A DNA stretch of 64,000 bases, taken from Macrocystis pyrifera (lineage: Eukaryota; Sar; Phaeophyceae; Laminariales; Laminariaceae). Below are positions 8,160 to 12,046 of this stretch, piece by piece (position 1 is the stretch's first letter; each line of letters starts with the position of its first letter). The notes under the pieces were generated by a model. That model did no database searches and was not told where the DNA came from. It worked only from the letters and a program-made list of their open reading frames with translations. The DNA is taken from NCBI GenBank assembly GCA_031763025.1, contig JASSKH010000014.1, positions 6,952,633 through 7,016,632 of the forward strand, read 5' to 3'. The translations under genes and the position numbers were made by a program.

Positions 8160-8845
8160 TAATATATATATATTATATATATGGGTTGGGTTGGTGTCGG
8201 TTGGCAACGACACTGTAAAACATGCCGCTCACTACGTGAGCTAGACATCCAGGGTACCGTTTTTTTTTTTTTTTTTTTCGGCGGTCGCCCACAGCTGGTC
8301 GTCTAGTTAGATCATTTGTGCGAAGTAAAGAACCTTTACTCTGCACAAGGGAATTGATCGTATCACGTAGTGTTCAAGGTACGGCACCCAAGAGGCAGTT
8401 ACATAGTACTCCCATTGCTGTCTCTGGAAGTGGCCACACCGGAAATTAAACTAACTCATTGAAGCTGTCATCCATATGCAAGTCCGCCTCACAAGCGGTT
8501 CTTAGTAGGATGCAGCTCACCCTTCATGCGACTCGCCGGACACCTCACGGCGCTTCGCGCTTGGTGCAAGCAATGTCTGCCTGGTCGGTGAAAACCCGAC
8601 ATGCTCCGTCCCGGCATTGTAGGGATGCGAGGGTCTATGGTCATACGACTACGGCCATGCTGGTGGAGTGTCACATTAAGTCTGTGTTCTACAGATGGAC
8701 AAGAACCGGTACACAAATGAGAAAGTGTGTTGGGCGTAAGCTTTTTTTACCCAGGTCTCCAAGGAGGATCAAAAAAAAAGAAAAAAAACTACGGCCATGC
8801 ATGAGATCGAGTACATCTCTCCTATCGAGTACACCCCCCCCCCGT
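8160..8845 (+). mobile_element. SINE-C, longest copy
   Basis: Begins after an AT-rich stretch with GGGTTGGGTTGGTGTCGG and contains a T run at 8261-8279. It continues through AGTCCGCCTCACAAGCGG and GGTCGGTGAAAACCCGAC, and ends GAGTACATCTCTCCTATCG and a C run. There is no open frame of note. It sits in the first recognised LRR intron; roughly 50-60 bp near 8715-8795 look like an insertion. Confidence 0.8.
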
Positions 8846-9252
8846 GTGTCCGGGACTAAAATGACAAAAGTGGGGTGTCACTTTTCTTCTTTCGTGTACC
8901 AAAGAACTAAAACATATATTTTTTCAGTTTATTTTATTTTATTTGGTTTTACTTACTGTAGTATACCCCCGCCCGCCCCCGCTGTCTGGGACAAAAAAAA
9001 ACATATTTCCTCTTGCTCATCTCTATCGTATTGATAGCATGCATCACATGCGCGATCCATGTATGTACTACATTGTGCCGGCACGAGGCACGAAGCAGCT
9101 CGCGGAGTCGGGTACGTGGTGATCCACGCGTAAACTCGAACGCGCGGCTGGCGTGATGACAACGTGAAATGACATGAAAATAAATGCCGCCTTTTTGCAA
9201 TACGACAAAAGCCCCAACACCTACACACACCACGCAGGGCGGCTCCGAAAAA

Positions 9253-9385
9253 CGAAAAAAAAAAAAAAAAAAAAAAAAACGGCAAAACAACCATGGCAAA
9301 AAAAACAAGAACGCCATAACAACAAGACAAAAAAAAATAACAACCAAACACTTAAAAAAACAAGAAAACAAAAAAAAAAACTACT
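9253..9385. other. A-rich low-complexity tract
   Basis: An A run of about 25 nt (near 9255-9279) and further A-rich DNA just inside the LRR intron, 100-230 bp from the donor at 9483. On the gene's strand it is T-rich. Confidence 0.7.
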
Positions 9386-9483
9386 GGGATTTTTTTTTTA
9401 TAAAAACACGGAAACAACAACACAACGAGCAAACAAAACAACGACGGTGTTGCCACTCCGGCTGCAGCATAGTTACGCCGCAC

Positions 9484-10444
9484 CTGATTAAACGTGACCC
9501 CGAACGACAGCGTCAACAAGCCGCCCGGCAGGATCATCCCCTCCACCGCCCTGTTGAATCCCGGCCCAAACGCCAGATGCTTCATGGAAGACGGCCACGA
9601 CGCGGAGGTCACATCGTCGTTGGCGTCCACCCTGACCTTCGTGATCGAGCGGGGCCGCTCCAGCCTCGACTTTACCACAGGCCTCAGCATCGCCATGCTT
9701 GAGCCCGGGCGGAGATGGTCCATGAGCACCTTCGGTGTGCTCTCGGAGACATGCAGGGACCAGGGGATCCCCGTCCTGCAGGCGTTGCAGAGGTTCAAGC
9801 TGACCTCGGTGAGCTGCGCGGCTCGCGCGAATCCGGACACCGCCGCGAGCGTGAGCGCTTTCAAGCGCATGTCGCGCACCACGGCTGCCGCCACTGCGGC
9901 CGCTGTCGCCGTGTCGGCCTTCGCGTTGCCAGCTCTAGCGTTGGCGTCGACGCTGCCGTTGCTGTTGCTGTTACCGTTAGCGTTGCCGTTACCGTTGGAG
10001 TTACCGTCAGCGTTGCCGTTACCGTTGGGGTTACCGTTGGCGCCACAGTTAGGGCTGGCCTTAGCGTTGGCGTCGACATTACCGTTGGTGTTACCGTTAC
10101 TGTTGGCATTGACGTTGGTGTTACCGTTGGCGCCACCGAGGGGGCTGGCGTATACGTTAGAGTACGCCTTGCGGTCAGCGCTCGCATCAGCGCAAGCCCT
10201 TCCGCTGGCACCAACCTTGGCAACAACGTTAGCACCAGCGCCAGCCCCACCGTTGGCGCCGGCGGCGGAAATCTCCGCCCCCCTCAAAACCGACGCCTCC
10301 TTCCAGCGAGGGCTCGGGATCGAGGCATGCGATACTAGCCCGCCCTCTTCTGACAGGGTGGACGAGATGGTGGAGGCGGTGGTGTAAGAGGGGACGCTGG
10401 ATTCTTGGCGCGGTTGGGAAGAGAGGACAGAGTCGTCGTCGTTT
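9484..10444 (-). CDS. FNIP-like LRR protein, first recognised exon
   Basis: This exon encodes 320 codons and ends in phase 0 at CAG|GTGCGG (donor 9483-9482). Its 5' edge is an acceptor-like TTTTTCTGTTGCGCGCGCAG ending at 10445. The frame has no ATG between there and an in-frame TAA at 10482-10480, so the start codon must lie in an upstream exon I could not place. The N-terminal part is Ser/Thr-rich. An Asn-alternating dipeptide tract (about 9945-10155) is encoded by a hexamer repeat (GGTAAC type). A region with LKALTLAAVSGFARAAQLTEVSL, split here by no known motif, then leads into two repeats ending VTFNQ, continued in the exon at 7188. Combined with the other exons the protein has at least 541 residues. 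No signal peptide or membrane span can be judged. Confidence 0.78.
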
Positions 10445-10634
10445 CTGCGCGCGCAACAGAAAAACCATGGCACCGAGGGTTAGTAAGGTGGGAGGGGGGG
10501 GGCGTACGAGTGCATGGCGTTAAACGTCTGATAAGTGACATGGACTGTTGTGTAAGAGTCTACCAGGGCTGGTCACGGGCCAGGTCAAACATCACGGGTC
10601 GCGTCGGGTCAAGGTCGTCTGATTATTATGGTAG

Positions 10635-10635
<1 letters not shown>

Positions 10636-10666
<31 letters not shown>

Positions 10667-10998
10667 ACTCAATATCATGCATGGCCGTAGTCGCATGAAC
10701 ATAGACCCTCGCATCCCTACAATGCCGGGACGGAGCGCGTCGGGTTTTCACCGACCAGGCAGATATTTCTTGCACCAAGCGCGAAGCGAAACGTGAGGTG
10801 TTGGGCGAGTCGCATGAAGGGTGAGCTGCATTCTACTAAGAACCGCTCAAGAGGCGGATTTTCTTGTATATGGATGGCAGCATCAATGAATCGATTTAAT
10901 TTCTGGTGTGGCCACATCCCGAGACAGCAATGGGTTTACTATATAACTGCCTCGTGGGTGCCTTACCATATACACACTACGCGATACGATCATAGCGC
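10636..10998 (-). mobile_element. SINE-C with 30-nt terminal homopolymer
   Basis: A run of 30 G (a C tail in element sense) is followed by TACTCAATATCATGCATGG and then the conserved body to CATATACACACTACGCGATA. It is truncated at its 5' end, next to the C tail of the LINE copy. Confidence 0.85.
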
Positions 10999-12046
10999 GG
11001 GGGGGGGGGGGGGGGCGTACTCATTTGTTGCTTGCCCTAGTCATTCGACCATTGACCATGCATCCCTTCGAGACGGAGCACCGTTCCTACACCTAATAGA
11101 GACACCTCCAACAATTGGGCGCTCATTGCGTTGTTTCCGTACATTACATAGAAACTTTTTGCTAGTCCTATCCCCTTCCTGTTTGGCCGCCTGTGGCCAC
11201 CATCTATATGTCCTAGGATAGCGATCGTTTTCTCGCTGCTATCGTGTGTATCAAAACTCCTCCATGTCACTTTCGTCTATTTCCCGCATCTCCTCTTCTA
11301 ACACATCCCGTTCCTCCCTGTGCATTTCACATTCTCCTACTATGCGAGTTCTACTCTATTGCTTTGCCACACGGGCACATCTGTGCATCTACTTCCTCCT
11401 CCTCCCGGCTACTGGTTCTTTGTTTTTTCTGGAAGGTCCAGGTCACCTACACGAAATCGCAGTTTCAGCGTTTTCGCGAAGTCCATTGGGCCGTGCAGAT
11501 ACGTTTTCAATCCTATTCCTTCCCTCAATCCCCCGTATATCTCTTTCAAGAGTTTTTCCGATTCCACCTTGTTTCTTAGCGCTAGCCTTTCCCTTCTTTC
11601 TACCCTTTCTTCTATTTCTGCCTTGTACCTCCCAAACTTCCCGGCGGACATCACCTCTTCTCGGTTTCCCCCTATATCCTTCCATACTTTCTCAACTACG
11701 CTATCCCACCTTATTCCAGCTCGCCCTTTTGTTACTTTCTCCCATACAGCTCTATCAACTATGGCTGGCAACCTCATTTTTGGTATGTTCCTTACTTCTT
11801 ATTGCCGTTTCAACTTTCTCATGGTTCTATTGGTCTTGAGTGGGTGCATTCCCAGTTCTGCTCTTACTACTGTATTGCTAGTCGTACTTGAGCATCTTGG
11901 GGATTTTTTTAGCTGCTGTCATGTGTTCTGTTTCCAACTGTGTTACGAGTTTCGCGTTCCCTTCTCATACTTCTCCTGCATATTCTAGTTTTGGAACTAT
12001 CACATTCACCAGGAAACATCTCTTAATCCTAGTGTCAAGGTGTACA
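10999..12046 (-). mobile_element. decayed LINE 3' end with C tail
   Basis: Minus-strand remnants of a non-LTR retrotransposon ORF2 C-terminus, read in three frames. The pieces are KLEYAGEV, then the best-kept segment 11777-11409 (MRLPAIVDRAVWEKVTKGRAG to RFRVGDLDLPE), then VDAQMCPCGKAIE (C-P-C zinc-knuckle-like), IVGECEMHREERDVLEEEM and SSEKTIAILG. Stops and frameshifts separate them, so it is dead. The reverse transcriptase catalytic core is absent (5' truncation at 12046). The 3' end reads GAATGACTAGGGCAAGC then GAGTACG and a 17-nt C run in element sense. I remember close relatives in brown algal genomes; not searched here. Confidence 0.82.

Follow-up and report, generated by a model that had tools for sequence, protein, structure and literature searches.

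A 64,000-nucleotide window of the giant kelp (Macrocystis pyrifera) genome (assembly GCA_031763025.1, contig JASSKH010000014.1, positions 6,952,633 to 7,016,632 of the forward strand) carries copies of a long interspersed nuclear element (LINE) and of a short element, here called a short interspersed nuclear element (SINE), which have versions of the same 3′ tail and end in a run of cytosines. The LINE and the short element that presumably depends on it probably enter genomic C tracts by target-primed reverse transcription. Existing C runs, among them the tails of the two elements themselves, appear to take most of the insertions, so that the run is landing site as well as tail. Homologous tails, a 3′ C terminus, strand-biased C runs on the 5′ side, same-strand chains of copies and a few target duplications that include part of the tract were all seen directly, and targeting of C tracts would account for the Cs on both sides, the strand bias, the chains and the composition of the duplications. 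It would thereby explain why truncated elements stand in same-strand chains strung on C runs in the kelp genome.

Exact patterns were counted in the whole genome (537,376,219 bases, 223 contigs), for which 537 Mb, 223 contigs and a GC content of 50.37% have been reported (PMC10498591). Both families were mapped in 338,822 bases consisting of the window and loci L002-L039, which yielded 86 copies. L001 was excluded from the counts owing to its overlap with L011; L032 and L037, apparently duplicated loci with the same SINE fragment and flank, were both retained. Upstream runs were scored in the 74 of 86 mapped copies that had a tail and at least 60 b of upstream sequence, leaving out 12, and the window together with L012-L031 served as a systematic subset.

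Shared tail and C-run terminus

An earlier note on this DNA, made from its letters alone, had described a ~70-bp tail aligning end to end between LINE and SINE and closing on a C homopolymer. Both parts held. The tail consensuses, from 37 SINE and 21 LINE copies, aligned end to end with a score of 62.5, against a mean of 15.2 (sd 4.4) and a maximum of 31 in 1,000 shuffles; judged by their sequences, the two tails are homologous over ~70 b. In the window, the 5′-truncated LINE copy at 11016-12044 (minus strand) ends in GAGTACG followed by C17 (10999-11015), and the SINE at 8160-8833 (plus strand) ends in GAGTACA followed by C10 (8834-8843). Genome-wide, 4,933 copies of the LINE end CAAATGAGTACG were counted (33 for the reversed pattern), of which 3,176 directly abut six Cs (CAAATGAGTACGCCCCCC; reversed-pattern control, 0). 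Thus, the C run is the terminus of the LINE. Before its own C run, the short element has GAGTAC(A) or a longer variant, GAGTACATCTCTCCTATCGAGTACA; one of its ends, GGCCATGCATGATATCGAGTACACCCCCC, was found 353 times (control, 0). Among the sampled copies of both families, a run of at least six Cs within 30 b of the 3′ end is the rule (58/74).

The second LINE example that had been proposed, at 54.3 kb (54207-54383, minus strand), did not survive inspection. Here the LINE fragment (54265-54383) stops short of GAGTACG; the motif at the terminus is that of a separate SINE tail of 44 b (54207-54250), on whose two sides a possible 8-b repeat, CCAAAGTC, was noted. The objection that a LINE may merely lie beside a SINE tail therefore applies at 54.3 kb, but not to the copy at 11.0 kb.

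C runs on the 5′ side

A strong bias also lies at the other end of the elements. The reverse strand holds 2,017 exact copies of the SINE head GGTTGGGTTGGCGTCGGTTGGC, and searches 10-40 b upstream of these heads returned 1,628 matches for C6 and four for G6, two of which also have a C run between. Since the 12 reverse-strand rows listed represent one match per head, the 1,628 matches are read as ~81% of heads; the count covers exact heads only, some of which may lie in duplicated regions. The forward-strand C6 count (12,227) includes every start inside a run and was not used. In several of the listed cases nothing separates run and head, which together read C(n)GATTATATATG or C(n)TATTATATACC.

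The sampled copies, from both families, showed the same preference. Of the 74 copies, 43 (27/51 SINE, 16/23 LINE) had at least six Cs in the 30 b upstream, as had 20 of the 36 in the systematic subset; at least six Gs were seen there in 2/74. Random element-free positions (20,000 draws) gave 1.7% for C and 1.6% for G, and an unrelated control repeat family of ~320 b had such a C run upstream in one of its 15 copies. A position inside the tract in a fixed orientation, as in simple-repeat-targeted LINEs, is thus seen both in the genome-wide excess of C6 over G6 and in the share of LINE copies.

Further copies in the window, all on the plus strand, illustrate the arrangement at various degrees of truncation. 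At 25120-25201, C32 passes directly into a SINE tail fragment; at 45384-46305, C80 precedes a SINE-like copy in two aligned pieces (head at ~45507); at 58870-59170, a SINE-like copy lies between C10 and C12. The extreme case is found at 57507-57573, where only a 31-b SINE tail, truncated inside the C tract, separates C25 from C11.

C/G runs of 8 or more were catalogued across the window (GC content 49.4%), and many of the element copies there proved to have a C run immediately before them. Very long C runs occupy 45384-45463 (80 b), 51097-51143 (47 b) and 2689-2720 (32 b); of these, the run at 45384-45463 alone is closely followed by a mapped copy, which shows that a long C tract need not adjoin an element. 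Some short C runs in the window belong to the ends of a short repeat resembling a miniature inverted-repeat transposable element, with inverted ends of the type ATTACGGGGGTCCATAGTTA ... TAACTATGGACCCCCGTAATA (window ~46613 and ~6267, L002, L004 and L007). The control repeat family, represented by 31638-31984 in the window and by 14 further sampled copies, begins with a T run and has no association with C runs.

Target duplications with tract Cs in a few copies

The earlier note had suggested looking for target duplications directly outside the C run. Duplications were found in six copies and consist of tract Cs plus flanking sequence. At 8.2 kb, the SINE is preceded by C8 and GTGTGTCC (8144-8159, plus strand, read by eye), which is repeated at 8836-8851, within the C10 run and GTGTGTCC that follow the element (8834-8851). 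The full-length SINE-like copy at 17003-17550 (plus strand) lies between two copies of A, C9 and TCCCTGT (16986-17002 and 17551-17567), and its GAGTACA is followed by C6 before the duplicated A; this suggests that some C came with the element. The window LINE is flanked by C8 and GCGCTATG at 12045-12060 on its 5′ side and at 10991-11006 on its 3′ side (minus strand), where C8 is the duplicated portion of the C17 run. These three duplications span 16-17 b. The 5′-truncated SINE-like copy at 5.7 kb (5605-5740, minus strand) follows C21 TACG, and CCCCCTACGA on its 3′ side repeats the 5′ side. The remaining two belong to LINE copies in loci L034 (CCGTCTTTCCTGT) and L011 (CCCTGGTTGTG). Where both cuts fall inside a long C tract, a duplication would be unrecognisable.

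Because elements have C runs on the 5′ side too and some duplications contain the run, much of the C was probably present in the target before insertion. At the 3′ junction, five of the six copies carry Cs or C-rich bases in excess of the duplication, which makes it probable that some C derives from the RNA or from slippage of the reverse transcriptase. Terminal-transferase-like addition at the 5′ junction is not favoured, because the upstream run is part of the target according to some of the duplications.

Same-strand chains

Neighbouring copies tend to share a strand. Of the mapped-copy pairs less than 80 b apart, 20/21 have the same orientation, or 18/19 without two alignment splits (p 8e-5), although pairs in a chain that share a member are not independent. 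The window contains such a chain at 10636-12644 (minus strand), in which three short-element copies and the LINE copy follow one another head to tail with joints of C9, C8 and C17 and a final C30. Its first member, a SINE-like copy with the C9 run (12420-12644), has no C run directly upstream. The next (12061-12411) has as its C run the C8 that doubles as part of the LINE's 5′ duplication copy. The LINE comes third, and the last member is a 5′-truncated SINE-like copy (10665-10993) with its C30 run at 10636-10665. The 3′ copy of the LINE duplication overlaps the first bases of this last SINE; since the duplication includes the start of the neighbouring element, the neighbour was there first.

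Chains mix LINE and SINE-like copies, and their members are of different subfamilies and truncation points. A loose test found no preceding element tail motif for 27 of 43 upstream C runs, so these runs are not all old tails. On contig C125 (~1566069-1622764, plus strand), six SINE heads among those listed are spaced ~11-12 kb apart, which suggests a large tandem duplication and makes DNA-level duplication of some copies likely.

The LINE and the short element

The LINE is of the apurinic/apyrimidinic endonuclease (APE) type and probably RTE-like, as far as its predicted protein tells. The window copy shares 88.9% identity over 1,037 aligned columns with a copy in locus L009 (7066-9306), which matches the reverse transcriptase family RVT_1 (E 3.6e-18). 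A protein search, in which 140 of 5,796 first-look candidates were scored, gave at least 141 matches. In the one near-full copy read (L040), a frame of 1,137 aa is followed by an overlapping frame of 257 aa that extends to the end. The longer frame carries an APE-type endonuclease (Exo_endo_phos, PF03372; E 9.6e-11, 42.3 bits vs a cut-off of 24.5) and a reverse transcriptase (RVT_1, PF00078; E 1.6e-29). For neither frame of this one copy did a Pfam search to E 1 match an RNase H family. The stop codon is the TGA in AAATGAGTAC, with GTAC alone between it and the C run (about four to five bases). Thus, the 3′ untranslated region is very short, and the tail shared with the SINE is coding sequence in the LINE. 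RTE-like LINEs lack an RNase H domain, have a single main open reading frame and a very short 3′ untranslated region. Matches in the PDB were to L1 ORF2 and R2-type proteins. RTE and RTE-X LINEs have been reported in the brown algae Saccharina and Ectocarpus (PMC4421812; PMC12477816).

The short element is ~500 b long and recurs in the window; a BLAST search with one copy retrieved more than a dozen others, and its exact head occurs 3,979 times in the genome. Short length, dispersal in thousands of copies and a 3′ tail in common with a partner LINE, aligned at twice the best shuffle score, are characteristic of a SINE. Its head showed no recognisable RNA polymerase III promoter, so the label is provisional: the best B box match had three mismatches and was equalled or bettered in 435 of 500 shuffles, and the best A box match, for which no shuffle comparison was made, had two. 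No tRNA genes were found in the window, and Rfam gave no match at the gathering score, with three sub-threshold matches only, for one copy. A tRNA, Rfam-family or polymerase III origin of the head was rejected on these searches.

The SINE copy at 8.2 kb contains a 128-b insertion with an A-rich tail (8661-8788), which lies between 12-b direct repeats, CTACGGCCATGC (8649-8800). From its sequence, this is an ordinary poly(A)-type retroposition, present beside the poly(C) type.

A fold common to the RNA of both tails is only a lead. In the consensuses without added Cs, the terminal GAGTAC folds onto GTGCTC ~60 b upstream, and among 50 tails (34 SINE, 16 LINE) standard pairs fill 142/171 cells of this closing stem in the SINE rows and 88/95 in the LINE rows, compared with 25-49% over all rows when the stem was slid. 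One outer stem fails in SINE rows (91/158), the fold energies of the tails are no better than those of shuffles (z 0.29 and -0.64), and the minimum-energy fold of the LINE tail changes once Cs are added. RNAalifold found a weak structure (-8.0) when given the LINE rows and none when given the SINE rows or all tail rows.

A model of insertion and its rivals

We propose that the LINE supplies an APE-type endonuclease and reverse transcriptase and that the short non-autonomous element, with its version of the LINE's last ~70 b, would be mobilised by it. A nick would fall on the G strand of a C tract, where the C-ended RNA could pair with the exposed G stretch and so prime synthesis; the second strand would be cut ~16 b further, inside a long tract but beyond a short one. 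Each new copy would then be flanked by Cs on both sides, offering fresh landing tracts, and later insertions in the same orientation would build head-to-tail chains.

Three other explanations compete with this model. In the first, built on the suggestion of the earlier note, a C tail is encoded in the RNA or acquired by it, insertion has no target preference and the run is purely a feature of the RNA end. Regular 3′ runs, 3′ runs in copies lacking a 5′ run and the surplus Cs in five of the six readable copies all agree with a C-ended RNA or untemplated C addition. However, the C6 excess upstream of heads (1,628 vs 4) strongly disfavours a run made by the RNA alone, the duplications contain the tract, and the control repeat family shows no C-run preference; RNA tailing with random insertion was therefore rejected and is very unlikely. 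The converse, in which all C belongs to the target and an RNA ending in GAGTAC(A/G) abuts the tract or pairs with it over one or two bases, gains from the same target bias (also 43/74 in the sample), from the copy at 5.7 kb and from the LINE stop codon four to five bases before the run. It is nevertheless unlikely in view of the C6 before the duplicated A (17545-17551), of C17 where only C8 is duplicated (10999-11015) and of copies with a 3′ run yet no upstream run. Chains and flanking runs might also have arisen by DNA-level duplication or by recombination between C tracts rather than insertion. Chains do exist, and the roughly 11-kb spacing on C125 makes this likely for some copies, but as a general explanation it is highly improbable: chain members differ in kind, subfamily and truncation point, most upstream C runs lack a preceding tail motif by the loose test, and target duplications occur at several sites.

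Several observations weigh against integration into C tracts as proposed here. Of the 62 copies that have a C run at the 3′ end, 24 lack a run of at least six Cs in the 40 b upstream; alignment breaks account for part of them, and off-tract insertion or later deletion may account for others. No significant correlation was seen between 5′ and 3′ run lengths (rho 0.22, p 0.19), and homopolymer lengths may be wrong in a PacBio-based assembly. The statistics for duplications are modest, with a length of at least 10 in 4/73 (shuffled mean 0.81, maximum 2.1) and a common prefix of at least 5 in 5/48 (mean 1.16, maximum 6.0). Of the six duplications, the one at 8.2 kb was read by eye and the one at 5.7 kb has no extra C on its 3′ side. 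In the one kelp genome, no empty site was seen.

Relation to known elements

The partnership had been put forward as possibly undescribed. Tail sharing itself is not new, having been published in brown algae for Ectocarpus RTEX-N1_Ec32 with RTEX-1/RTEX-2_Ec32 (PMC12477816). That element resembles ours in being an abundant non-autonomous element (~600 b there) of unknown 5′ origin, whose 3′ end is conserved with an autonomous LINE; in the text consulted, no C-run end, C-tract target or chains are mentioned for it. Bov-B likewise combines an APE-type LINE and a SINE with a common 3′ end, simple-repeat ends and target-primed reverse transcription, but its 3′ repeats, which differ between LINE and SINE, reportedly seldom match the target, whereas in kelp the same homopolymer forms tail and target (PMC13295347). 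Insertion into simple repeats is described for microsatellite-specific LINEs, such as Togen for (TG)n and some HERO families; these lineages have a restriction-like endonuclease, in contrast to the APE-type domain and C-homopolymer target of the kelp LINE (PMC4640811). Of the APE-type clades, only Tx1 and R1 are said to show site specificity, and the role of simple repeats at LINE and SINE 3′ ends is called unsettled (PMC13295347). Both the sharing of tails in brown algae and simple-repeat targeting by other LINEs are thus already known. Within our limited searches, in which "poly(C)" was not searchable as a term and most subscription journals were not covered, we recognised no report of poly(C)-tract targeting.

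In human L1 and Alu, a homopolymer RNA tail faces a complementary target strand. The model for the kelp elements is the C/G counterpart of the L1 poly(A) tail and T-rich target; it differs in the use of C/G rather than A/T, of long tracts rather than a short motif (TT|AAAA in human L1; PMC13295347) and in the chains of nested copies. More tentatively, the system may be a self-feeding homopolymer homing, in which the C-ended RNA of an APE-type, RTE-like LINE finds its site through G tracts and each insertion makes new landing tracts for the LINE and its partner, the C tail perhaps coming from a poly(C)-adding activity or from reverse-transcriptase slippage. If so, pairing between tail and target would decide where a copy lands. 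Since one homopolymer serves as both tail and target, with a strong bias and thousands of copies, pairing of the tail with the primer is directly testable.

Elsewhere in the window, open frames resembling FNIP/leucine-rich repeats were noted by eye at 4142-5196 and 9352-10479 (both minus strand), one of them with long Asn-rich repeats.

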